A stretch of DNA of 64,000 bases, from positions 8,181,943-8,245,942 of the forward strand of contig OX387603.1 in NCBI GenBank assembly GCA_947568835.1. The letters run 5' to 3'. This document shows positions 2,664-64,000 of the stretch, one piece after another (the stretch's first letter is position 1; each line of letters starts with the position of its first letter). This DNA comes from Protonemura montana. Taxonomy: Eukaryota > Arthropoda > Insecta > Plecoptera > Nemouridae. Position numbers and translations under genes: made by a program. Under the pieces are notes generated by a model. The model worked only from the letters and a program-made list of their open reading frames with translations. It searched no databases and was not told the origin of the DNA.

Positions 2664-3106
2664 TATTAGTATTATTTGTGGTGTTTAACGACGCACTGTT
2701 TTGACAACTGGCCCTGCGGCACTGGTCTAATTGCGTCGGTGAATGAGTGGATGATGATGAGGATGATGATGCACCTAACCTAGCCTAGAAGGGAGGAGGG
2801 GAAACCCGGTACCGGCACGTAGCCTACTCCTGTCGAAAAGCACCAAGGGGACCACCGGCTTCACGTCCCTTCCGAAGGACGGTACAACTAGAACAGCAGG
2901 ATTCCTCCACAAATCCATGCTGTCGAGAGGTTGATAAGCAAGGCGAATGAAGTTGCTGTACTAAATTTCATCCCTCCAACCTCTCTCCCGAACAGAACTG
3001 GTCATGTGTATAATGGTCACCCATTCAATACCTGACTCAGCGCGGTGTTGCTTAACTTCGGTGATCCAACGAGAACCGGTGTTTCCAACACGCCAAACCG
3101 TTCGGT
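2664..3106 (-). repeat. Full-length 5S rRNA-derived SINE (SINE3 type), copy 1
   Basis: On the minus strand the element begins with a 5S rRNA-like head: CACCGGTTCTCGT, then ATCACCGAAGTTAAGCAACA, then AATGGGTGACC, which match the 5S internal promoter region. A unique body follows, and it ends in a short ATAATA-type tail. It is flanked by an 11-bp direct repeat, TTTGGTATACT, at 2653-2663 and 3107-3117, which is the target-site duplication expected of LINE-mediated insertion. A near-identical copy lies at 50896-51308 and truncated copies lie at 13741, 34154 and 59109. Confidence 0.88.
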
Positions 3107-15336: not shown

Positions 15337-15351
15337 TACCCATACAGCACA
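15337..15351 (+). repeat. Left terminal inverted repeat of the transposon
   Basis: TACCCATACAGCACA pairs with the right end at 22555-22569 in inverted orientation with one mismatch. The first TA may be target-site sequence. Similarity falls off immediately inside this 15-bp core. Confidence 0.7.
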
Positions 15352-15610
15352 CGGACATTGTATGGACATACCATAAACATCCCGTCGGGACATAAGGGAT
15401 ATTCGTTTTATATAAATTGGACGTTGTAGGGATGTACGTGGCAAGTACTTATGTCTCACTTTTTTACATCCCCTGTACGTCCCAGGAATAATCCACCGGA
15501 TGTCGCAGGTATATACCAGGGATTTTCTTATATATATGCCACGGACGTGCCTTGGAGGTTCCAAGGGATGTACCACATATATCGTCGGGATATTGTCTGC
15601 ATATCGATTT
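15352..15610. repeat. Left subterminal repeat region
   Basis: It contains repeated short words such as GGGATATTC, AGGGATGTAC, CCAGGGAT and CGGGATATTG in both orientations. These are related to the GGGATATCC words near the right end. Such arrays are typical transposase-binding regions of En/Spm-like elements. A 172-codon plus-strand frame (15451-15969) crosses this region but looks like a by-product of the repeats. Confidence 0.55.
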
Positions 15611-15899
15611 TATGGGATTTAATGAGTTATTTAAAAAAAACTAAAAATTCTGTTGCATATTTATTATTGTATTGCAGTGTACAAAATTCGACCTACAGAT
15701 TGGTCATAAAATGGGGTAATCAAGTGGATGCTATGCTAAACATCACGTTAGAGGCAACATGGAAAATCTCTTGTCTAGGCAATATAGTAACTAATGTTAA
15801 TGATAAGATTCTCCTTAAGTTTCTAATTCTTCGTTCTGAAGATAAGGACATTTCACATAATAATATTGAAAGAAAATGGGAAGCAGCCACACACAAAAT

Positions 15900-16440
15900 A
15901 TCTTCCCTCATAGGCTCAAACCAATCACAGCCATCATCGGCATTGGTAACACATGTTTGGCAAAAATAATTATAATTGCTGTTTAAGCCAACGGTAGGTT
16001 GAAAAATGACATCTTTTCTGCCAACTAATATGTCTTTACGGAAAGATGATATGAAACAGATATACATACATTTTTCACGTCTTGATATTGATAGAATATC
16101 GGTATCTGACAACGGTTGATATCATCCACGCAAAGTCTTAATATTGAGAGAAAATTGAAAAACAGTATCTCTCGTACCTCACAGCCATCGTCGGTATTGG
16201 TAACTTCACACACCCAAGCATACAAAGAAAAATGAGTAACTCTCATCCCGGACTGGCATCAATGGCTTGATTAGCAACTAGTTACGATTCAGAACCAAAA
16301 TAAAGTGAAAATAAAATCTCTCTTACCTAACTGCCATCATTGGCTTGATAATAATGGTTACGATACAAAACCAAATGTAGGTTGGAAAAGGAAATCTCTC
16401 CTTCCTCAACGCCATCATTAGCTTGGTAACTATGGTCATG
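15900..16440. repeat. Degenerate tandem repeat inside the transposon
   Basis: The words GCCATCATCGG, GCCATCGTCGG, GGCATCAATGG, GCCATCATTGG and GCCATCATTAG recur at about 15932, 16185, 16256, 16332 and 16411. Each is followed by TTGGTAAC or a variant, and some are preceded by ATCTCTCNTACCT. The last four units are about 71-79 bp apart. They lie between the left end and the DUF4806 gene. Confidence 0.6.
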
Positions 16441-16797
16441 AAATATAACTAATTTGCACTTGATCATTAATACTATCTTTGTCTACCACTGGGCAGATAA
16501 TTGACGATCACAATAAAGATTTTTACAGAATATATGATCATTGGAAACTGTATCTAAGAAATATACTGCAAGAACTGCATTTATAAATACAACACTCGTA
16601 AAAGACAAAAATTTACAGGACACTTAAACTTGAGCTTAACTTAAATATGAGTGATGAAATTGTGTTGGCTGGTTGTGAAAGTTCAGTTTAATCCGTAATT
16701 TGGGAGTTTTCAGGCCTGAAAATGCATCACAAATAAATTACTGTTTTTGATAACTTATAACAACACCAAGCCATACATTATATACAAATATATTTAC

Positions 16798-18393
16798 TTA
16801 CAAAATATTAGTAGCACGCAAAAGCCGCTCCTTGGATCTAACCAACCAACATTGGATGGCCCCCTCTATCTCCTTCTCGCTGGCAGTTTCGTTGAGTTTT
16901 AGTACAGCTTCTGAAATTGGAGTAATTTATAAGCGGTTTTATTATTAATCGGGCCGATCATTCTGATGAGAATCCAAATGTAATAATTGAGCAAAGACCA
17001 ATGCTTTTACATTATACATACGTTTGATGACTTTAGCAAGAGTCAGCTTGCTAAAAGAATTTTTCTTTTTCTTTCCTGGCCAACTGTAACTGACAGCTAC
17101 ATCTGATGTAACCACACGCTCCATAATGCGAGCAACGCTGTTCTTGACAGAACATCCCCCCACTCGAGAAAGCTCGTTTATCTAAAAAAAAAAATTATTT
17201 ATTACAATTAATTTGGTATGTTGTTATTGAGTTTTTTTGCTTTGAAACAGTACTACACCACCAGTTCATTCAGATTTTTTACATACCAGGCCCAAAAAAA
17301 TATCAATTTTCTCCAGTTTCTTTTCCAGGATGTCTAAACTATTCAGAGACTTGACAGGTAAAAGCAGCTCAACAAGTAGGTTTGTCCTAGCTGGTGCCTC
17401 AGTGTTGGCAGACTTGCTGCTAGCAGCCAATAGCAGATCAACGCCTGCTCGGAGCTGCTGAAGTTCGACCTTCTGCCGGGTCAGCAGACGAATTACTTCC
17501 GATTCAAAGCCTGCAAAAAAGGCATTAATAATAGTTCACAAAAAAAGAGATAGTAAACTTAAGCTGAGAAAAGGCTAATTTATTCAGCTTACATTCACGC
17601 CTGCGAGAAGGTGGAGAGTGAGGTGGCGGCCGGCTAGGTGTATCTCGATCACGTGTCGATGGAACAGTTCTGTCTTTACCAGACTGCGAATACGCTATTC
17701 TCCGGGGCTGCGACATAGAGATCTGTTTCCGAGGCTGCGTCGAGGGAGAATGTTCCTGCGGCTGTGCTACGGGGGAGTCTTGAGGCAGTGACATAGGGGA
17801 GAGCGGTGAAAAAGGGGGGAGATCTTGCAGCTGTGCTGTCAGCGATGATGCACCTTGCATTGTGGCTTTCTTATTTTTTTTCTTAGGTGGTGCTGGAAAT
17901 TCATCATCGGAACTCATTTCACTGGAGTCACTGAAGTCTGTCGTCAGACGGGAATAGGTAGTTCCTTTTTCTGCTTTCAGCTGTGCAGTTGCCAAGTCAG
18001 CTAAAAAATGAGAGCAAAAATCACTTGTTTGTCGGCACCCTATGAATGTAACAAATTGCCATGCACATTTAAATTTAAATGTGGACATCAACCATGGCCA
18101 AATCAACAAAATGCATATGAAATTCACAAGTGTGAATCAACAAAAATGCCATGCAACGCGATACAACAAAATAAATCAGTTTACGTACCATACCTCCCCA
18201 TAAGTTTAGCGGAATACATTGGCCAGTTCTTCTTGGGGAGGTCTTCATTCCTAATGGCTGCCAAAACTTTGGCAGTATCCACTGCTTTTGGCGGCCAGTA
18301 ACATTGCTTGGTTTTCATAACAAACCATGACTGTGGTACCGCATCAACAAAAAGATTACCATTGTCGGTTATCGACACCACGCAGAAGGCCAT
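16798..18393 (-). CDS. DUF4806-domain protein of the transposon (5 exons, 369 aa)
   Basis: The model joins 18393-18189, 18000-17593, 17510-17287, 17181-17022 and 16910-16798. All introns have GT..AG ends and the phases close exactly. The total is 1110 nt ending in TAA. The N-terminal exon has the W-rich start often seen in this family (residues about 20-35: PQSWFVMKTKQCYWPP). The middle is a low-complexity Ser/Pro/Gln linker with a basic PPKKKNKK stretch suggesting nuclear location, followed by a Leu-rich helix (about 215-275). The DUF4806 domain starts near residue 280 with NELSRVGG and includes SWPGKKKKNSF. DUF4806 has no established biochemistry. Its place beside the transposase suggests a DNA-binding accessory protein like En/Spm TnpA, which is inference. 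An acceptor-like TTTGTTTCAG just upstream of the ATG suggests a 5' UTR intron. Confidence 0.78.
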
Positions 18394-18629
18394 TGTAGCA
18401 AACCTGAAACAAATATTGTGAGTTAATAAAAAGTAGTGGATCTTGGTTTTTTTTGCAAGATGCCCAGGCTACCAAGGAGAATGTACTTGGTGCTTCTCTG
18501 CTTCACCGTCAGAGCGTGAGAGAAGGGCAAGAGAAACCTAGTCTAGGGGCACCATAATTGTGTACACTATTACTGATCATAGCTTGAATTAGCTATCCAT
18601 GTGGCTGTGACATAGGGGATGCTTTTACC
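18394..18629. other. Spacer between the two transposon genes
   Basis: It separates the transposase stop (18630) from the DUF4806 start (18393), both on minus. The only notable signal is the acceptor-like tract just upstream of the DUF4806 ATG, which would let an upstream leader exon splice over the transposase ORF. Confidence 0.4.
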
Positions 18630-20765
18630 TTAGCAATGCAGAAGAGGAAATACAACATCAGTGTTGCCTAAAGTAAACCGAACTAATTTGGCGCAAATCT
18701 TACTGATTGGCCAGAATTTTCGATTCGACAGCGTGTGCACTTTGTAAATGCCTAGCTCGGACGAGTGGATTGGCTTCTCGAAAAGATTTTCTCTGGCTTC
18801 AAACAACCTGCCAATTACAAACATTTGACCTTTTCTCGAACTCACTATGTTCTCGACAATAATAATGTCGTCCTCATCGCTAAGAACACAATTATTAGCC
18901 TGGTCAATGCGAAGAGAGAAGTTTTTGAAGTTGGCTCGTTTGTATTGGGGATCTCCAAAATCCTTCAGCAGAGGCCCATTGACATGTACAAACGAGAAAA
19001 TTATTTTGCTTTCTGATTGACTGGCAGTAAATACGGATGATTGGTTCTTAATTTCTTCATAACGTCGGTGGAGCTGTTGCAGTGGCTTATCACACTTTCG
19101 GACAAGTTTCTTCAGTTCCTGCATGAAATTCTCGAAAGCAAATGCACTGAAGTTATCGAGTGCACCCAGTTTTGCAGCATCCTGCGCAATGTGGAGCAAA
19201 CCATGAACATTGTGCGAAACTAACGCTTTCCCGTAAAGCTTTGCAAAGCGCTCAACAAAAAAATGCAGCAGTTCGTCAGCGTACACGTTGTGAGTGGCGC
19301 ACATATCTGGTGATGCCAAAATTCTCACGGCGACATGGAGTGTCAGAAAATGGAGGAATAATTTTTTGGGCAATACTTGCAGCAACACAACCGGCCCACT
19401 GTAAAAGAGAAATTGGCGGAGCTCCGTAGCCTTCCACCGATCAATCGATTTTAAATCCCGAGGCTTTCTGGCAAATTCGACCGGAACACAGGTTTTTAAC
19501 AGTAAGAGTTTCGCAGTAACTCGATTGACCTGCCCCATGGACAGCTTCGTTGGCAATTTTCCACGCATCCAAAGAAGAATAAGTTTTTTTGTCACTCCCA
19601 GGCAGATGAGGTGCATGTAGTCCAGTGGAAATTGGGACACATGTCCAAACCCTGGTATGGTTTCCAGTGGAGAAAGACCAACATGATGTTCTTCTTGGCG
19701 GTGCTGTTGGAATGACGCGTCCGTTCTCAGTTCGATATTTTTACTGTATGGAAAGCACACTCTATTTTCGATGTAGTTTCCACGTTGGGTGCACTTGGTA
19801 CAGCTGTAAAAACCCGAGTGTCCCTTGGTACACGTCACAAAAGATTTAGCCGGGGCATCACATATAAACGATGTGGTCTTGAATTGCCTCACTTTGCCCT
19901 GGATTGAGATGCCATTGGATGTTAGGTTTACAGCCTCTTCTACAAATTCTCTCAAGAAATCATGTGGAGAATGTGGCTTTACATCCCCATGGTAGCACCC
20001 AATGAGAAATGGTTTGTTGGAAATTTCTCGCACCAGTCCTAAAATTGGCCACAGTTGGCTGCCCGAAGCTTTGGCAATTGGAAGACCATCTATTCCCACA
20101 ACGAGTTTGATGGTTGTGGGTATTTGTCTTTGAGCAATACTAATTTTGCCTAGCAAATATTCAATGCCATTTTTTATCCCGTGGTGCCAGTATTTACCGG
20201 GATAAACGTTTTGAACGCCGGTGGAACGGGGAGTCCCAAGTAAAATGCGTGCATCTTTTGGAAGGTTGACATGGCATGGGTGTGAGTGTAGCACTGTTAG
20301 TAAATTGTTAACAACACTATGATGCACATTATCTTTCACTGCCCAGGAAGCCAGTAGGTCTTGGAACGACTTGTCAACTGAATCGAATCGCACATCTGGA
20401 TCGCAAAACTCACTAGGCTCATACTGGTCGTTCAAAGGTCTTTCGATGGTCGAGGCTTGCTCATCAAAACTTGACTCTTCTGAAATATCAGAGCGTTGGT
20501 CTGATATCAAACTATCTACATCGGCGGCATAAATCGGGCTCTGGACAGGAGAAATCTCATGACTGGAAAAAAGCTGAGGGTCGTCACTGTCAATTTCTTC
20601 AGATGAAGATGCCTGATTAATATATTGAAGTGCTTGGCTCGTTTCCTGCGCTACAAGCCTGTCTCTCTGTCGGTGGGATTTTAATTTTGTGCCACTCATG
20701 GTTGTCTTTGAAAGAAGAGCTGGAAGTTCAAGTGTTTCTGTAGAAACATTCTCAGTAAGAGGCAT
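18630..20765 (-). CDS. TNP2-like transposase (intronless ORF, about 711 aa)
   Basis: The open frame is continuous. I start it at ATG 20765 because the three codons upstream begin with TTG and an acceptor-like TTTATTGCTAG immediately precedes. The first ~150 residues are acidic and Ser-rich, perhaps regulatory. The catalytic core resembles the TNP2 transposase family: GIDGLPIAKASGSQLWPI (about 224-241), a zinc-knuckle-like GHSGFYSCTKC (about 315-325), PLDYMHLICLGV (about 380-391), and HGLLHIAQDAAKLGALDNF then FAFENFMQELKKLVRK (about 521-557). Candidate acidic catalytic residues are D226, D303 or D382, and E545. That assignment is inferred from family patterns. The role would be cutting and rejoining element ends. 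No stop or frameshift is seen, so it may be functional or recently so. Confidence 0.85.
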   Translation of the reverse strand: MPLTENVSTETLELPALLSKTTMSGTKLKSHRQRDRLVAQETSQALQYINQASSSEEIDSDDPQLFSSHEISPVQSPIYAADVDSLISDQRSDISEESSFDEQASTIERPLNDQYEPSEFCDPDVRFDSVDKSFQDLLASWAVKDNVHHSVVNNLLTVLHSHPCHVNLPKDARILLGTPRSTGVQNVYPGKYWHHGIKNGIEYLLGKISIAQRQIPTTIKLVVGIDGLPIAKASGSQLWPILGLVREISNKPFLIGCYHGDVKPHSPHDFLREFVEEAVNLTSNGISIQGKVRQFKTTSFICDAPAKSFVTCTKGHSGFYSCTKCTQRGNYIENRVCFPYSKNIELRTDASFQQHRQEEHHVGLSPLETIPGFGHVSQFPLDYMHLICLGVTKKLILLWMRGKLPTKLSMGQVNRVTAKLLLLKTCVPVEFARKPRDLKSIDRWKATELRQFLFYSGPVVLLQVLPKKLFLHFLTLHVAVRILASPDMCATHNVYADELLHFFVERFAKLYGKALVSHNVHGLLHIAQDAAKLGALDNFSAFAFENFMQELKKLVRKCDKPLQQLHRRYEEIKNQSSVFTASQSESKIIFSFVHVNGPLLKDFGDPQYKRANFKNFSLRIDQANNCVLSDEDDIIIVENIVSSRKGQMFVIGRLFEARENLFEKPIHSSELGIYKVHTLSNRKFWPISKICAKLVRFTLGNTDVVFPLLHC

Positions 20766-20849
20766 CTCTAGCAATAAACCCAGAGGTAACTACAAAGTAT
20801 TGCATATTAGCCGGCTAGGCCAAGGATGACTAAGCCACTACCCTAACAG

Positions 20850-21145
20850 AAGCATACAATATTGTAAACTCACCAATAAATAAATTGTAAGCCAGGAGCT
20901 CAGACCCTTGCTCTACAATACTGCTGTTAATATTAGGTTTTCCTCTCCACAAGAAAAATTAAGCTGAGCTGAAAACAGAAAAGTGAATAGATTTACAGGC
21001 TAGGTGTCATTTATTAAAGTAGCTTACGAACCAAGTAACTAGTAAGGTCCATGAGGCAAGGCAAGGCAAGATAACCTTACAAAGACGCTGTAAAAGTAAT
21101 AGTATTATGATATCAAAATATATAATGATTAAGAATGCATCTTAC
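20850..21145. other. Presumed intronic or leader DNA of the transposon
   Basis: No coding frame is visible. On minus there is a possible second leader donor near 20873 (GGTGAGTTTAC). The rest is AT-rich. Confidence 0.3.
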
Positions 21146-21310
21146 CGTTGTATCCTCAGATTCTGTTGCTTCTTGATGCAAAAATCCACAAGGCAAAATC
21201 CACATAAAGCCCGAAATCAGAATTGTACTCAGAGATCGTAGCACTGCGAGTCGAGCAATCACTGAACAGGCAAGATGGCTTCTATGTTTACATCACGTGA
21301 CAATATTGCG
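21146..21310 (-). promoter_or_regulatory. Candidate transposon promoter and shared leader exon
   Basis: On minus, a GTAAG donor lies at 21145-21141 just below an exon-like stretch. Further upstream is GAAGCCATCTTGCC (plus strand CAAGATGGCTTC, 21271-21282), which resembles a YY1-type initiator site. A spliced 5' leader could join acceptors before the transposase ATG and before the DUF4806 ATG. No frame in this stretch continues into either protein, so it would be untranslated. This is inference from splice signals. Confidence 0.35.
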
Positions 21311-22350
21311 CTCAGTGATCGGCTTTGTTCGGTCGCTTCCGACTCCCCGTATTTTTATTTTTTGATTCGGTTTCACATTTAATTGTATTTAGATGAATTA
21401 ATTAATTCGACAACCGATATGAAATCGAATCGATGATATTATATCTACGCAATCGATCCAATATTAACCACACCACCGAGCGTGGGAAAGATACGTCATA
21501 ATGTGATCTAATCGTGTGGTCTGACGTCACACGAGATGAAAATAATATGTAAATGCTCTCAAATCACCGATATTTTGTTCTTAACGATCGAATGACACTT
21601 CGTGGCGCGATTCTGAAAGACGATCGAGATACAGCGTAAATTGTACGATGGGGTAGGTTGGTTTGATTCAGCTAATCGATTCAATCAACACTTTTAATAG
21701 TGTTGAAACGAGTCCCAGGCTGCGATGACAAGGGTACACCCACTTATGCTTGTTCAACCATAAAACATACACTCCTTTGCTCGTATAATCAATCAAATCA
21801 GGTAAACCAGAACATCAACACAACCGCGAAGACCCTGGCAAGCTTATCAGGACACTAACTTGCCAGATTTTAACCTTTGAGAGAGATAAACGACCAGAGT
21901 AGAAGGCTAAGTGTAGCTAAAAACTACGCTTTGACTCTTACAAGAGACTCTCACGCAAAGTCAAAGGACCATAACGACTGTTTGATATAACATTCAGATA
22001 CCTATTGATCTCGTCTACATTTTATATAGACGTTTCTTTCAGCATAGCTAGAAAACTGAGCGAGTAAATGACAAAAAACTTGGATCACCCAAAATTGTTT
22101 TTTTTGCAAAGTAAGAGATTCAGCCATGGTTTCATATTGTGAGCTCGAGAAATTTAACAAATTTGAAACGATCTTGAAACTTATTTTGTCGGAGGTTTCG
22201 TGAGTTGAAATTAACATAGATTACTCATTTTTCATCGCTGAATCGACTGATCAACACGGCATATCTATGCGTTCCAAATTGACGTAATAGTTTGTGAAAT
22301 ATTAGACAAAGTATGTTTGAAAAACTTACGAAGATAATATTGTGGTCCAT
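21311..22350. other. Non-coding right arm of the transposon
   Basis: No supported gene is visible. The DNA is rich in ATCGAT-type words near 21400-21470 and AT-rich beyond. It lies between the putative promoter and the right subterminal array. Confidence 0.4.
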
Positions 22351-22356
22351 TGCCGA

Positions 22357-22554
22357 ATGTCCCCGGGATATCCCCACAATGACCAATTTTAACGTGTTTT
22401 CTGGCATGTCCCCGGGATATCCTCACAATGACCAAATAAAATGGGCTAGGGATGATCCATTTCAGCATGTACCCGGGACATCCCCACAACGTACCATTTT
22501 CATAGGATGTTTTTTGAACATTGCGTACGTCCTGTGGATATCCCAGGGATATCA
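22357..22554. repeat. Right subterminal repeat array
   Basis: Three units of the form ATGTCCCCGGGATATCC followed by CCACAATGACC lie at about 22357-22385, 22405-22433 and 22466-22494 (the last with variants). An unrelated-looking stretch is followed by GTGGATATCCCAGGGATATC just inside the terminal repeat. Regular, near-palindromic GGGATATCC units are likely transposase-binding sites. Confidence 0.7.
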
Positions 22555-22569
22555 TGTGCTGTGTGGGTA
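22555..22569 (-). repeat. Right terminal inverted repeat of the transposon
   Basis: TGTGCTGTGTGGGTA is the inverted partner of the left terminus with one mismatch. The terminal TA is shared by both ends and may be the target duplication. Confidence 0.7.
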
Positions 22570-25236: not shown

Positions 25237-25262
25237 GGGGGGGGGGGGGGGGGGGGGGGGGG
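25237..25262 (+). repeat. Poly-G tract of about 26 bases
   Basis: An uninterrupted G run is followed by GGAGGAGGAGG. It could form G-quadruplex structures. Its exact length may be unreliable because of sequencing error in homopolymers. Confidence 0.85.
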
Positions 25263-34153: not shown

Positions 34154-34373
34154 AACTCGAACAGCAGCATTCCTCCACAAATCCATGCTGTCGAAAGGTT
34201 GGTAAGCAAGGCGAATGAAGTTGCTGTACTAACTTTCATCCCTCCAACCTCTCTCCCAGACAGAACTGGTTATGTGTATGATGGTCACCCATCCAATACC
34301 TGACTCAAAGCAGTGTTGCTTAACTTCGGTGATCTCACGAGAACCGGTATTTCTAACACGCCAAACCGTTTGG
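34154..34373 (-). repeat. Truncated 5S rRNA-derived SINE, copy 3
   Basis: It contains the head half of the element, from the 5S-like end (AACACGCCAAACCGTTTGGT at the right border) through CCTCTCTCCCAGACAGAACTG to AGCATTCCTCCACAAATCC. The distal tail seen in copies 1 and 4 is missing. Confidence 0.82.
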
Positions 34374-50895: not shown

Positions 50896-51308
50896 TTATT
50901 ATTATTTGTGGTGTTTAACGACGCACTGTTTTGACAACTGGCCCTGCGGCACTGGTCTAATGGCGTCGGTGAATGAGTGGATGATGATGAACCTAACCTA
51001 GCCTAGAAGGGCGGAGGGGAAACCCGGTGCCGGAACGTAGCCTACTCCTGTTGAAGAGCACCAAGGGGACCACCGGCTTCACGTCCCTTCCGAAGGGCGG
51101 TACAACTCGAACAGCAGGATTCCTCCACAAATCCATGCTGTCGAGAGTTTGATAAGCAAGGCGAAACTTTCATCCCTCCAACCTCTCTCCCGAACAGAAC
51201 TGGTCATGTGTATAATGGTCACCCATTCAATACCGGACTCAGCGCAGTGTTGCTTAACTTCGGTGATCTAACGAGAACCGGTGTTTCCAACACGCCAAAC
51301 CGTTCGGT
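50896..51308 (-). repeat. Full-length 5S rRNA-derived SINE, copy 4
   Basis: It closely matches copy 1 over the 5S-like head, the body and the ATAATAA-type tail, with a small internal deletion. Flanks CCACCCCTAAC (50885-50895) and CACCCCCCTAAC (about 51311-51322) look like a target-site duplication differing in a C run. Read on minus, the head retains the 5S-like GAAGTTAAGCAACAC and AATGGGTGACC. Confidence 0.88.
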
Positions 51309-51841: not shown

Positions 51842-53853
51842 TTAGAACCCTGGAATCACTCTGCCTCTCTTGGATGATTTTCGCATTTTATTGTTCTTTA
51901 CTTTCTTTTGCCTTTCACTGATATTTGATGCCCTCTTCTGGGACTTCAAGTTAATTTTCTTGTCAACAGCCTCCTTTCTTTCTTCCCAGTGTAACTGATT
52001 CTTAGCCTTTCTCTGCTTTATCTTCTTCGCTGCCTTTGCCAAACGGACTGGATCATCTTTCAACTTTACGCCATCAGCCATTTGCAACGCCTTCTTCCAC
52101 ACCTGTTCTTCTTTCGCTGCCTTAATTTTTTCCAGGTCCCCAGTCATTTCAAGATTTTTCATGCTTTCATTTTCTTTATGCAACTTGTGAAGTAGTGCTT
52201 TGGGATCATAGAATTTTTTACCTCTTGGATCTGAAGATGTAGGTGTTGACTCGTCGAACCCAAACTTACTGAAGACCATCTTTCCTTCGCTATTATAGAC
52301 AGGTTTTGGAGGTTTAGTCGGCATGAACTTGATATCCTTTTTATCTTCTATAATTTTGGGTATGAACATTGAACCAGGTTCTTGGGCTCTGATTGTCTTG
52401 AGTTTTTTAGCCTGTGCATGTAAATTCTTTTTTTCTTTCTTAGTAATTTTTTTCTTCAGGCCATTTTTCATTACCCTATCTTTGTAGTCGGCATTCTTTT
52501 TCCCTGTAATGTAAAAGAAATAGTCAGCTATCTCAAATCCATAAGATAGGGTTTTGGTAGAGATTATGAATTGATTAACATTAAAAAACTAGCGTGGTAG
52601 TAAAATCCATCAAGTAGCTTCAATAATTATTACCATAATAATATATTTTACCATACATAATATTGTATACCATTCAGCCATACATTGAATTGCAAAAAAC
52701 TGTAAAATCTTGTTCACGTGGATTTTTTTCTCCGATGGTACTGTTTCATGACGCCATTTAGTGAACATTATAAAAGCTGTGAAGTACTAATTTAATTGTG
52801 GGTATCCCACTGAACTAGAGATTGAAAATTAAAATAAGCCATGTTTAACTTGGAGTGTTTTTACCTTTCAAGAGATCCAGCTTTTCGTGAAGGCCTTTCA
52901 GTTTCTCATCAATGACACTTGTTGTTTTGCCAGTTTTGGAATCTGTAACAATCAGAAGTCTGTCACTACTCACTAGTATTTGTCACTATCCTAAATTGAA
53001 GGATGGATTGAAAGATAGAAATTGCTATGGAAATTGAAAATAGCTAAGGTATTGGTAATTTAAAAAATGAATACATTAAGTGGACTTGAGATAAGGGACA
53101 GTGATGAACCAAAGATCATCCATTTTCCATATTATTATAATAATGTGATAATGTTGAAATATATATCCCAAACTTGAAATGCTGTAAAGCTAAATAAAAA
53201 CTAACTAGTAGCACTATCCAGTCTCAGCGTAGCGTGTTGCATGTCACTGAACAACTTATAGGCAGTGACATATCTAAGAACGCTCAACTCTCTTTTCATT
53301 TCAGTCCTTGCAAATGAACATATGAAGCACAGTTCTGCATTCTATCTCAGAGTTAATAAACACGTAATTAAGTATGTTACCTGCTTCAATAAATCTGGCA
53401 TGGCCGCGAGGTAAAAATGTCACTGCTTTATCCTTCTGCGAATCGGTACCACCAACTGAAAATGTTTTTAAATTAAGAGCATCCAGGAGGTGCAGTTTAT
53501 CTTAAGCATGTATTCTACGTGTAATTCAATTTGGAATAAAAATATTCTTGATTCTACAGGTTGTCATTTTAATTTATAACAAGCTGATATGTTACCTAAT
53601 TGATAAGTACCTAAAGGGACAGGTTTACATTTTTTAATGTTTACAATTTATGGTCACAACCAATATCCCATTTATTTTTGTCAACCTGGAAGTTCATTTT
53701 TTAGGTTATGTGGACATTTCAATACTCACCTATTTCAGTGCTAGGGATTGGCGATATCTTCAATAACTTGCTTAGAAGATCACTCGCACTAATAAATGAC
53801 GCCTTGAATGTGTTCACATCAAAGTTAACCCTTTCGCTCCCTTGAGACTTCAT
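51842..53853 (-). CDS. Surf6: SURF6 (surfeit locus protein 6 / Rrp14 family), 4 exons, 312 aa
   Basis: Exons are 53853-53730, 53455-53381, 52942-52865 and 52503-51842. All junctions are phase 1 with GT..AG, and the total is 939 nt ending in TAA. The N-terminal part is about 115 residues. The lysine-rich SURF6 domain follows, with VFSKFGFDES-like (GKMVFSKFGF), a helical KIKAAKEEQVWKKALQMADGV segment, then KDDPVRLAKAAKKIKQRK and HWEERKEAV. The C-terminal tail is very basic, ending near KKVKNNKMRKSSKRG. SURF6/Rrp14 proteins are nucleolar, nucleic-acid-binding factors needed for ribosome assembly. The length is close to other animal SURF6 proteins. It is divergent from DNAJC9, with the two start codons about 450 bp apart. 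Confidence 0.92.
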
Positions 53854-54301: not shown

Positions 54302-56625
54302 ATGTCAGGATTACTAAATTTGTGTGAAAAATATTTCGGTCTTCGAGATTTGTACGAAGTACTTCAGATTTCGAAAACTGCCGATGATAAACAAAGTATA
54401 GAGAAAATTAACCTATAATAGCTTCAAGCATTGGTGTATTTGGTTCTTACATTTTCGCATATCACTAACAGCTTTCACATTTTCTTTACAGTTCGCAAAG
54501 CCTATCACAAGCTCTCATTACTTGTTCATCCTGATCGAGTCGATGAGAAGGACAAAGCTGAAGCTACCGAAAAATTCAAGGTCTTGGGCAAGATCTACTC
54601 TATTCTAAGCAACAAAGAAAAGCGAGACATTTACAATGAAACGGGCATATTTGATGAAGATGATGAGGATTGGGACGATAATCTAGGAGCATTCTTCTTG
54701 TTTAAGAAAATAACCGATGAAGATATCGACAATTACGAAAAGAGTTACAAAGGTAATGTTAAAACAGGTTGACTAATTTGGTTATTTTATTGGATTTTGC
54801 TACATTGTTGATTTTGGTTTCACTTTGGCTTTGGTAGTAATTTTCGATTGCTCACTTGAGTTGGCAATCTGGTATGTTTTCTTGGTTTGCTATTTTAATT
54901 TTTAATTGATGTCGACGCCACTTGTTTGATATCAGCTATTATTGCTGGTGATTGCAATGGAACAAATGGAAGGTTATCAATTTATAACCATCGAGCAATA
55001 TCTAAGAATTTTTGCACATTAACCTATTACCTATATACTATTTATACCTAAATAGGGTTGTACATTAGGTTACAACTTAAGCTTTTAAACATTTTTTTCG
55101 TAAGTGACTGTAGCTTTCCGAAGATTCTTAAACCACCAAAACTGCTGTACAAGTTTAAGAGTGGCTAACAATAAATATTTAAATTGGGTTTTTAATGATA
55201 AGTAAGTAAAGAACAACTACAGGCCAATGTTTGCTTCAAAACAGAATATTTGGGTACTTGAAAATACAGACAAAATATAAATGGGACTACTTACTTTGAC
55301 CTGTAAATTATATTGTAAAAGTGAAACCCCCATCCTTAGAGGTTCAAATATTACACGGCGAATAGAGCAGAGAGAAAATAGTGACGGCTGCAAAATAAAA
55401 TTTCTTTAATGTGACAGAACGAAGCCTTCCTGAATCATCACCAAATTCAAATTCACATTTTTTTGTATTTGTCTAATCTTCCATTTTCAAAATGTTGGCT
55501 AAACAGGGAAAATTAATTTTGGCCTATAAACTCTCTTGAACGCCGACTAAGAAAGATTTAAACGGCGTTGGTGAAACCGGCCCTAAATGGAGAGAGTGGC
55601 TCATTACTAGGCTGGTAGGTAGTACTAAAGCCATACCTTGGCACTCTTCCAAACACTAAAAATGATCCACTCGATTTAACACCTGAGAAGGTTTAGACGT
55701 GACTAGATAACCATCAGTAAGTATAGAAAGAAAGGGAGGTGACCCCTATTTCTTATAACATATTGATTTCTTGACACTTGCTTTCACAAGAAAGTGGGCC
55801 ATGCAAGTTCTTTTCTTTTAAAAATAAAGTTTGTGAAAATTTTTTTAAATTTTGTTGCAGGGTCAGAGCTAGAACTTGCGGATCTTAAGAAAGCGTACAT
55901 AAATGGCAAAGGGGATATGGACCACATTCTCGAAACCGTTCCATTTTCGGAAGAAAAACGAGTGCGTGAAGTTGTATTGGGCTTAATTAGCCAAAAAGAA
56001 GTTCCCGAATATGAGATTTTTGTAAACGAACCACCAGAAAACAAAATTCGTCGCAAGAGAAAGGTAAGATAAGAAACATGTACTAGAAACTTGGGTGTCC
56101 AACCAAATTTTTTAATATTTATGGGACAAAGAAGAAAGACTTAACTTAGCAAATTTTATTTGATTTTCAAAATAAATGTTGCCATTCGATTGAGTTGTAT
56201 TTCCCTATATTTATTTATATTACATTTTACAATTTTGAGCAATTTTTCAGTTATAAAACTTAATAAAGTGGTGGTTCTAGCATGGAATGAATTTCAAGGT
56301 GGTTATTGGCTGGATTAGAGCCCAAGGCTCAGAGAATTTGGATTAAAACCCACTAGAAATTATATTACTCTTGCCATTATCCAATTCAAAGTTTGGTCAT
56401 CACTGCCTATTTCAGGCAGCACGAGAGTTCAAACGCTTTGAGAAGCTCAATGAGAAGCTCAAAAAGAAGCAAGAAGGCACCGAGGATCTGCAGGTCTTGT
56501 TGAGAAATAAGCAACGGGAGCGCGGAGTAATGTTTGATGCGTTCATTGATAATCTCGCCGCAAAGTACGGAGATACCAAGAAACCTCGAGGCGCAACAAC
56601 TACAAAGAAGAGGCCAAGGAAGTGA
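54302..56625 (+). CDS. DNAJC9: DNAJC9, J-domain co-chaperone (4 exons, 255 aa)
   Basis: Exons are 54302-54395, 54492-54752, 55861-56063 and 56416-56625. Phases are 1, 1, 0 with GT..AG throughout, and the total is 768 nt ending in TGA. The J domain covers about residues 16-83, with the HPD motif in [16 protein letters not shown] and RKAYHKLSL before it. The family hallmarks [19 protein letters not shown] and [20 protein letters not shown] follow. A basic Lys/Arg-rich C-terminus ends [20 protein letters not shown]9 is known as a histone H3-H4 chaperone that recruits HSP70 through its J domain. The length is close to that of vertebrate DNAJC9. The small first exon is supported by the match of [21 protein letters not shown] to the family N-terminus. 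Confidence 0.94.
54753..55860 (+). other. Intron 2 of DNAJC9
   Basis: It starts GTAATG and ends TTTTGTTGCAG. AT-rich, with no other feature recognised. Confidence 0.7.
56064..56415 (+). other. Intron 3 of DNAJC9
   Basis: It starts GTAAGA and ends CTATTTCAG. No other feature is visible. Confidence 0.7.
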
Positions 56626-57244: not shown

Positions 57245-57391
57245 ATTTAAATTGCAAACACTTACAATGCGCGGGGTATTTTATTATTAACAACACTATA
57301 ACCGTCTCAAAAATTGATGCCCAAACGCGGACTCGAACCCAGATCTCCACCTTTTGCGGGTGTTGCTCTGAACCTTTGAGCCATCTGGACA
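57245..57391 (-). repeat. tRNA-derived SINE, copy 1
   Basis: On minus it starts TGTCCAGATGGCTCAAAGG, with a D-arm-like A box. It continues through GGTGGAGATCTGGGTTCGAG, a T-arm-like B box (GGTTCGA), to GTTTGGGCATCA. A shared tail follows, ATTTTTGAGACGGTTATAG and later AATAATAAAA, ending in GCAATTTAAAT. The tail matches the copy at 63041-63176. The anticodon loop lacks the usual U33, so a functional tRNA is unlikely. Confidence 0.78.
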
Positions 57392-61771: not shown

Positions 61772-64000
61772 ATGGCGACAGCATGGCAGAATACTTTACG
61801 GATAACTGCATTAGCTGGAGTTGGCTTTGGTGGATGGCTTGCAGGAACAGTAACAGAGCGACTAAAAAACCGTTACGAAATTGGAATGCAATCACAAAGT
61901 GATCGCCAGTGTTTAAGCAAAGAATTGGTTTGCAAAATGCCTGGACTACCCATTTTCGGAACGGTCTCCGCAGCTACTCCAATGGAGAAAAAATTTGTAC
62001 CAATGGAATTACCATCTATTGTTCCATCGTCTGCAAGCCGCGTTTCTCAGGTTAGTGACCGCTGTAAAATTGTAATAAACCTATTTCAAATTCAATGGCA
62101 TCAGCCACTACACTGCATCTATTTTAATCATTTTCAGATAGATAATACACACTTGTCTGCAGTGCATTATAATACAATACATTAAAATACTGATGATAAG
62201 ATCCCAGCCATTGTCTAATTTCATTGAATGGAATTTCATTGGTCTTGGCTGTTAATGTTTGTAGCTTGGAACAAAAGTTAACTTACTGAATATTTAGATG
62301 GGAAGCAGGTATTTGGCCCATGATAAAGTGCAATGTGATATTTTTATTTGCTTCAAGTCTAAAACCCTACAAGAAATGAAAAGTATTATGAGCCAGTACA
62401 AATTTAGACCCAGAGCTGGCAAGCTGCCTTATGTTACTAAATTGGTGTTTTTACAGATAATGCGATATGGTTTTCCTGGAATGGATAATATAAGGTCCCT
62501 GGATGATTACGTATTGTCATATGACAAAAGAAATCGAGTAGCTCATTGGGTATTTGAGCACTTGACGAAAGAAAACACCAGACACAATGATTCGGTTGAC
62601 CGCGCTAAATGTGAATTCACAGAGGATGCTTCGGTTCACGCTTTTTTTCGGTGAGTTGTCTTCTAAGTGGTGTTACTGTATTGAAAAGAGAAGCAGCAAT
62701 TATGAATAAGTTGAAACTATCACAAATGTTGGGTTTAAAAATAAAATAAAATGTTCAAATTACACACTGCTTTTAAGTTATTATTTTTGTGATTTGTAGC
62801 ATCTGTTTCGAATCATTGCTTACAGTGTATCTATCTCGTACAGTATTTATCACACGCCATGCCAGGCCCAGATTATTGGTATATAAGTGTGTAAGGCATA
62901 CACAATAACACTGTTTACAACTTCTTTTTTTTTAACGTGAGGGAGAGGGGCCAATCGTTTATTATTATTAGGACCACTAATAACCTTTCAAAAATTGATG
63001 CCCAAACAGGGAATACACTAAAATCCTCTCAAAAATAATGTGTCCAAGTAGCTTAATTGGTTAGAGCAACACCCCATGACAGGTGGAGATCGGGGTTCGA
63101 TTCCCCGTTTGGGTATCAATTTTTGAGGTTATTAGTGATCTTAATAATAAAACACCCCGTGCTTTGCAATTTAAATCAGATTTTGCTCAGGGGCCAGTAG
63201 TATTTATTAGACAATTATAGAAATTTTGGCCTTCGAGAATGCAGAAAAGCCTGATATTGGTAGTTTGCTTCATGCATGACTTACCAACTGCAACCACCCA
63301 CTTTAAATTTTGCTTAAATGCATTGCAATCAATCTGAAGGTAATAAAGTAGCTTGTAGCTTTTGTTCTTTACAATTGAAGTCATTTCCAATTATGTGCTT
63401 ATTCTCTGCCAAACTATTTGTTTATTTTTCCATAATGGATCAGTTTACATGTCCGTTATGTACAAATCTTATTGTTACCAACAAATAGTTACTTTAATCC
63501 CAATGTTTATCATTTTAGAAATGCATATCGCTTTTGTAAAAATCTCGAAAGTGCTGATAATCAGTTTGTGCCGCATAAGCGGTCGCTTACGCCTGAAGCC
63601 AGTCGTAGCCATGTCGACAGATAAAGTGTAACTTCAGTTTCTATATGAAACCAGAATGAAAATTTTAATTTCCTAAGCTGCCAATAAACAAATAATATAA
63701 ATAATTGTCAATGAGTGACTAACTTGATGTTATTTCTGTTTCACAATTAGTTCACAAAACAAAGACTACAAAGGAAGCGGATTTGATCGCGGACACCTGG
63801 CTGCGGCCGGAAACCATCGGTGTAACCAAAAAGACGTCGAACAAACGTTCCTGCTATCGAACATGGCACCACAAGTCGGCGTCGGATTTAACCGCCACTC
63901 ATGGAACAACCTTGAAAAGTATGTGCGGAAGTTGACCCGTTCGTACTCAAACGTATACGTCTGCACCGGTCCTTTGTACCTACCAAGGGTCGAAAGTGAT
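61772..64000 (+). CDS. EndoG: Endonuclease G, mitochondrial (5' part, cut by the window end)
   Basis: Exons seen are 61772-62050, 62457-62650 and 63751-64000, running off the window. Phases are 0 and 2 with GT..AG. The first ~90 residues look like a mitochondrial leader with a hydrophobic helix (ITALAGVGFGGWLAG). The nuclease fold then begins with IMRYGFPGMDNIRSLDDYVLSYDKRNRVAHWVFEHL. The catalytic motif DRGHLAAAGNH places the His at about residue 173. NRHSWNNLEKY carries the Asn and Glu expected near the metal site. EndoG is a beta-beta-alpha-metal nuclease of the mitochondrial intermembrane space that cuts DNA and RNA. The C-terminal third is not in the window. Confidence 0.95.
62051..62456 (+). 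other. Intron 1 of EndoG
   Basis: It starts GTTAGT and ends TTTTTACAG. No other feature is visible. Confidence 0.7.
62959..63012 (-). repeat. Partial inverted tRNA-SINE fragment
   Basis: ACTAATAACCTTTCAAAAAT then TGATGCCCAAACAGGG is the reverse complement of the SINE region from the tRNA 3' end into the tail. It lies about 30 bp from a full copy in the opposite orientation, so the pair could fold into a hairpin in the EndoG pre-mRNA. Confidence 0.65.
63041..63176 (+). repeat. tRNA-derived SINE, copy 2
   Basis: The head TGTCCAAGTAGCTTAATTGG, then GGTTAGAGC, then CGGGGTTCGATTCCCCG (A and B boxes), pairs as a tRNA-like acceptor stem with TTTGGGTA. The anticodon arm is irregular. The tail ATCAATTTTTGAGGTTATTA leads to AATAATAAAACACCCCG and GCAATTTAAAT, shared with copy 1. 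A tRNA predictor may call this a tRNA gene, but the conserved non-tRNA tail shows it is a SINE. Confidence 0.78.

Follow-up and report, generated by a model that had tools for sequence, protein, structure and literature searches.

A probably mobile TRC-group transposon in the plecopteran Protonemura montana carries a spliced DUF4806 gene beside a predicted DDE transposase

In the genome of Protonemura montana, an insect of the plecopteran family Nemouridae, a 64,000-nucleotide stretch of contig OX387603.1 (assembly GCA_947568835.1, positions 8,181,943 to 8,245,942 of the forward strand; here called the window) contains two adjacent genes that raise a question about transposon biology. One encodes a predicted transposase of the TNP2 kind, a relative of the CACTA-type elements that have been studied mainly in plants; the other, which is spliced, encodes a protein with DUF4806, a domain of unknown function. 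Do the two genes form a single mobile unit and, if so, what might the second contribute? An earlier reading of the letters alone (the original prediction) had proposed a two-gene TNP2 transposon. Searches of the insect's own genome (258 Mb in 34 contigs, with the window at C2:8181943-8245942) support this two-gene model: the copies have common ends and 2-bp target duplications, one empty site is present, and the two genes repeatedly occur together. The element, which spans 7229 bp (15339-22567), is a new member of TRC, the animal relatives of CACTA/En-Spm within the CMC clade, and is a young DNA transposon, probably still mobile and of the cut-and-paste type.

The extent of the element is defined by the boundaries common to its copies. 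Read on the forward strand, it starts with CCCATACAGCACA at 15339 and ends with TGTGCTGTGTGGG at 22567; both genes read on the minus strand. Its 13-bp terminal inverted repeats (CCCAYACAGCACA) differ from each other by one mismatch, with the left repeat at 15339-15351 (plus strand) and the right repeat, read inwards as CCCACACAGCACA, at 22555-22567 (minus strand). Both repeats begin with CCC (CCCAY at both ends), and no CACTA core was found in them. A TA dinucleotide lies immediately outside each end (15337-15338 and 22568-22569). The original prediction counted these two letters as part of the element, giving a span of 15337 to 22569 and 15-bp repeats with one mismatch. Because the corresponding positions are TG or TT in other copies, the outermost TA is target duplication; the element, its inverted repeats, and the single mismatch stand, and the outer 2 bp on each side do not. 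The accompanying remark that the ends are not CACTA and that the flank is TA describes the window copy correctly.

Near-identical copies are dispersed through the genome; their CCC...GGG ends are exact, their 2-bp duplications begin with T, and one paralogous site is empty. A search with the whole element, which scores the best candidates only and so yields lower bounds on copy number, returned at least 11 matches. Five copies are full length (the window copy, C3:14340951, C1:25998705, C4:2727177, and C4:2809267), one is without the left 183 bp (C1:7513695), one has an internal deletion and was matched as two pieces (C3:16786765-16791880), and three relic pieces lie at two places (C13 near 3.56 Mb, at 97 and 98%, and C12:12577542, at 93%). 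At least seven copies are recent, the transposase frame being open in four of the seven, and all six recent copies with both ends have matching 2-bp flanks (TA, TG, TA, TA, TT, and TA). Further copies, equal ends, and target duplications, which the original prediction had proposed to look for, are thus present, and the boundaries are the same from copy to copy.

Divergence among the copies is slight. The five copies that were aligned (the internally deleted copy was left out) have 0, 3, 1, 1, and 0 substitutions relative to the window copy, and the copy at C3:14340951 has zero differences from it across 7229 bp. Only one difference, at window position 17078, splits the copies into two sets (G in the window, L002, and L006; A in L003, L004, and L005); with the codon read by hand, it changes proline to leucine in DUF4806 exon 4. 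Copies L004 (C4:2727177-2734417) and L005 (C4:2809267-2816504) lie 75 kb apart in opposite orientation. Because they have the same 8-bp insertion, which shifts the transposase frame, yet different 2-bp flanks (TA versus TT), the simplest account is mobilization in trans, a defective copy having been moved by enzyme produced at another locus. A paralogous site on C15, 93% identical, is without the element of C4:2809267 and aligns across the junction; as this junction falls in an A-run, the site shows the absence of the element and not the exact length of the duplication. An empty-site search with the flank of C3:14340951 gave partial repeat matches only, with no empty site in the three loci aligned.

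Ends of the same type bound a second element, F33, whose transposase is 42% identical to that of the window. A scan of F33 for CC...GG inverted repeats gave 24 pairs at up to two mismatches, of which a single one combines one mismatch with equal 2-bp flanks: CCCAGACAACACA / TGTGTTGTGTGGG, spanning C2:41499-51818 and bordered by TA on each side. Copies of the flanking repeat elsewhere in the genome match up to exactly 41498, an independent support for this boundary, and all three of the empty sites fetched read straight through with a single TA, making the boundaries exact. F33 is thus 10,320 bp long, with CCC ends (CCCAGACAACACA) and a TA duplication. The source of its empty sites is a long repeat near the end of C2 (L059, C2:37500-41870) that has many near-identical copies, several of them near other contig ends, and that looks subtelomeric.

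The transposase gene (18630-20765, minus strand) is a single frame, open from 20765 to 18630 for 711 residues; the placement originally proposed for both genes, on the minus strand, is confirmed. Motif and conservation point to a DDE transposase of the TNP2/TRC type. Its motifs include IKLVVGIDG...WPI (219-241), CDAPA with D303, CTKC (322-325), LDYMHLICLG (381-390), HGLLH (521-525), and FEN with E545, from which the putative catalytic residues (D226, D303, and E545) and two residue pairs (C322/C325 and H521/H525) were assigned. Box A (LDYMHLICLG) fits the TRC/Transposase_21 pattern; so do motif I, apart from one residue, and the aspartate and CXXC of motif III. As in TRC, D226 and D303 are separated by about 80 residues and accompanied by a CXXC (CTKC, 322-325). 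Between the second D and the last E (E545) are C(2)C (C322/C325) and H(3-4)H (H521/H525), the signature given for the CMCT clade (PMC12730594). A protein search of the genome with the transposase gave at least 37 matches, among them other families (33-49% identity) and a more distant group at around 30%, here called the deeper set; the signature residues line up in those relatives that contain the stretch. The window protein does not reach the curated cut-off of PF02992 (Transposase_21), with no match at E values up to 10; its link to that family runs through a relative in the deeper set, L048, which is 30% identical to it and scores 33.6 bits against a cut-off of 28.6. The predicted TNP2 core motifs are present by motif, without a direct Pfam match. 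A sequence search of the PDB with the transposase returned no credible relative. The members of the deeper set (L045-L052) are TNP2-type elements at about 30% identity, several copies of which are nearly identical; L045 has a 1014-residue frame, the N-terminal part of which matches a histidine-rich, probably low-complexity profile.

The DUF4806 gene lies downstream of the transposase gene on the same strand, and its five exons join in phase through GT-AG introns, as the original prediction had it, to give 369 residues. Exon 1 (18189-18393) encodes a conserved V-P-x-S-W ... C-x-W domain that was aligned in four families and is preceded by an acceptor-like site ending at 18404; its motif, V-P-x-S-W...C-x-W-x-P, is common to the four families, which are 28-33% identical to the window element in this domain. 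Exon 2 (17593-18000) encodes a low-complexity linker, exon 3 (17287-17510) a helical region and the start of the DUF4806 domain, exon 4 (17022-17181; E value of 0.0022 alone) most of that domain, and exon 5 (16798-16910) the C-terminus with the stop codon. The spliced product scores 28.2 bits against PF16064, above the cut-off of 25. A sixth exon is possible, for the stop codon of the five-exon reading falls within a donor-like site at 16801, and splicing from this site to 16715 would add PENSQITD. PDB searches with parts of the DUF4806 protein and an N-terminal profile gave no credible relative by sequence. A six-frame search of the genome with PF16064 gave zero matches and is uninformative, because its own control also gave zero and introns split the domain.

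The main test of linkage between the two genes was a pair of genome-wide searches with parts of the DUF4806 gene. The N-terminal 68 residues matched at least 11 places, seven of them in the window family and four elsewhere. For three of the latter (C16:28150703, C16:28182145, and C12:14793043), a transposase match is found on the same strand 0.8-1.3 kb upstream; the two on C16 appear to be duplicates of a single locus. No convincing transposase was found within the 4 kb fetched upstream of the fourth, C12:12343214; it looks like a transposase-less derivative because its exons are 88 and 98% identical to the C16 family. The search with exon 4 of F36 (the C1:18664513 family) gave three places, F36 itself and two weak ones (E values of 0.08 and 0.24), both 1.6-2.0 kb downstream of transposase matches on the same strand. 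Outside the window family and the query, five of six places therefore lie 0.8-2.0 kb downstream of a transposase on the same strand (two of the five duplicating one locus type, and two being the weak matches), and the sixth is the transposase-less copy of a linked family. The chance that a random place is so linked is about 2 in 10,000, given 37 matches, a distance of 2.5 kb, one strand out of two, and a genome of 258 Mb.

Searches that start from the transposase agree with this arrangement. A DUF4806-type gene, on the same strand and 0.2-2 kb past the transposase, is retained in relatives only 33-45% identical to the window transposase. In the 1.5 kb downstream of seven transposase loci, the exon-1 domain was found in three (L033, L036, and L038). 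Searches of fetched loci add L034, L039, L043, and L054 to the linked set, and these four are not independent of the transposase because they were fetched for it. DUF4806 exons were recognized in F36 (45.9 bits) and in F38 at 20.6 bits, below the PF16064 cut-off. Locus L037 could not be used, since the transposase match ends early and is followed by what by eye is a long gag-like open reading frame. The spliced DUF4806 gene thus travels with the transposase, in the same place in several diverged families. The co-occurrence that the original prediction had asked after is found in this genome: the genes are co-mobilized in the full-length copies, alongside which there are derivatives missing the transposase or the beginning of the DUF4806 gene.

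The CCC ends and 2-bp duplications place the element in the TRC group. TRC was described in 2006 by DeMarco et al. from SmTRC1 of Schistosoma mansoni and elements in Tribolium castaneum and Aedes aegypti (PMC1636069), so that the divergent animal lineage of En/Spm suspected in the original prediction already has a name. According to that paper, TRC elements also have Transposase_21-type motifs I and III and box A, a second protein encoded downstream of the transposase, and lengths of 4.5-9.2 kb, compared with 7.2 kb for the window element. In the same paper, the second protein of SmTRC1 (SmTRC-PrA) has no named domain, whereas that of the window has DUF4806; the terminal inverted repeats of SmTRC1 are 54 bp long rather than 13 bp; and its alternative splicing was shown by cDNA, whereas splice sites suggest it here (PMC1636069). 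With plant CACTA elements (En/Spm, with TnpD and TnpA) the window element has in common a TNP2-kind DDE transposase, subterminal repeats, and, as proposed below, a second DNA-binding protein (PMC1636069, in part). It differs from them in having no CACTA core and no direct PF02992 match, and its second gene bears a name unrelated to that of plant TnpA. Plant CACTA elements make a 3-bp target duplication, whereas that of the window element is 2 bp. Within the CMCT clade, as outlined in PMC12730594, the element has the C(2)C and H(3-4)H pairs and a duplication within the range of 2-5 bp, and differs from most members in ends that begin with CCC instead of CA.

Repeats lie inside both ends of the element. 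At the right end (22343-22555), a direct-repeat search found three 48-nucleotide copies and further 21-nucleotide copies with GGGATATCC-like cores; at the left end, the same search found no family, and a motif count places GGGAYRT sites at 15377-15593. GGGAYRT occurs 17 times on both strands of the terminal 2 x 260 bp (8 left, 9 right) and twice in the interior. The ends of F33 are without GGGAYRT and have a repeated 8-mer of their own, AATGGTAT, with six sites at the ends and one inside. In an unbiased test, the top 7-mer count was reached in 9 of 1000 shuffles for the window element and 19 of 1000 for F33, and the top 8-mer count in 2 and 12 of 1000, which gives modest statistical support for the end repeats. 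A 78-bp tandem repeat (2.4 copies, 16252-16436) lies 3' of the genes.

Both proteins may come from one primary transcript that would start toward the right end and be alternatively spliced, as in En/Spm and SmTRC1. We infer this shared transcript from several features. An acceptor-like site precedes the DUF exon in all four families examined by eye. The window and F33 have an ATG between this site and the domain; F36 and F38 have none in frame, so that, if their copies are undamaged, an exon further upstream has to supply the start. Neither AATAAA nor ATTAAA occurs on the coding strand between 20685 and 17584. The stop of the transposase gene is followed directly by a donor-like site (TAAG|GTAAAA), but a bicistronic reading through it was dropped, as F33 and F36 are without such a site.

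It is likely that these parts belong together as a TRC-group cut-and-paste element with a DDE transposase, a DUF4806 partner, and a shared transcript. The transposase would cut at the CCC ends, and the DUF4806 protein would be its DNA-binding partner, attaching to the subterminal repeats in the manner of TnpA and assisting or regulating synapsis. This TnpA-like role is suggested by the end repeats and by a second-hand report that classes DUF4806 as a DNA-binding domain of the BEN type (PMC11075544, which cites Pan et al., 2023). Several results weigh against so complete a picture. On the side of the transposase, the 711-residue protein has no Pfam or NCBIfam match at E values up to 10, motif I has A where the TRC pattern has F/Y (its one misfit), box A of F33 departs from the motif (FEYMH), and single-sequence structure prediction failed, with a mean predicted local distance difference test score (pLDDT) of 33.5. 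On the side of its partner, prediction failed likewise for the exon-1 domain, at 51.4, the BEN relation was not reproduced by sequence search, exons 3-5 were not recognized in F33, where exon 1 is present, and three loci of the 30% set (L045, L046, and L048) have no DUF4806 gene within 1.5 kb. As to the repeats, the contrast between 17 observed GGGAYRT sites and a maximum of 6 in 2000 shuffles is overstated because the motif was picked after the repeats had been seen, and the top 7-mer count is also reached by 4 of 60 interior control stretches for the window element and by 6 of 90 for F33.

How the second gene came to be there, and what its protein does, can be explained in other ways. That a one-gene transposon merely landed beside a host DUF4806 gene is highly improbable, as the complete unit lies between identical ends in five copies, a sixth is without only 183 bp, and the arrangement recurs in relatives. 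A captured host gene carried as a passenger, with no part in transposition, would agree with the copies that lost exon 1 or the transposase and with the deeper TNP2 families, in which such a transposase can evidently exist without a DUF4806 gene in the 1.5 kb read. We regard this as unlikely, since in families with transposases of only 33-45% identity the gene retains its position, strand, and open exons, which would be unexpected of a passenger. The DUF4806 protein may instead be a self-regulator that represses the transcription or movement of its own element rather than a transposase helper. BEN proteins are described as regulators of transcription and chromatin in PMC11075544 and PMC10080584, and binding near the promoter-side end would fit such a role as well as binding for synapsis would. 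The candidate sites lie at both ends (8 left, 9 right) and not at the promoter side alone, and we give regulation in place of help a minor, though real, chance. The TnpA of En/Spm does both jobs, and for this reason the helper and self-regulator readings overlap.

The remainder of the window holds features unrelated to the element. Three dispersed matches to 5S rRNA (49-62 bits) lie on the minus strand at 2986-3106, 34255-34373, and 51188-51308, and two tRNA matches lie at 57318-57390 and 63042-63115. Likely host genes are SURF6 (51842-52588, minus strand, 93 bits) and a gene with a DnaJ domain (54422-54772, plus strand, 53.9 bits). A run of 26 G residues occupies 25237-25262.

An animal CACTA-type element is thus at hand in several near-identical copies, in four of which the transposase frame is open, and it points to where DUF4806 may belong and what it may do. 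The identity of the second TRC gene as DUF4806 was not found in print; Repbase and most subscription journals lay outside the search, which makes this weak evidence of absence. The passages on DUF4806 that were consulted do not link the domain to CACTA elements, and among the titles retrieved none pairs the BEN domain with transposons or DUF4806. We tentatively suggest, at somewhat less than even chances, that in DUF4806 animals have their counterpart of TnpA: a DNA-binding protein of the BEN type whose evolution accompanied that of the TRC transposases, with every family combining a version and a subterminal motif of its own (GGGAYRT in the window element, AATGGTAT in F33). High numbers or an enrichment of DUF4806 genes are reported for Hydra and an ambrosia beetle, and a group of them for the zebrafish sex chromosome. 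If DUF4806 is the TnpA counterpart, those genes would be transposon genes or their domesticated descendants, and families counted as host expansions may need to be read again as transposon content.

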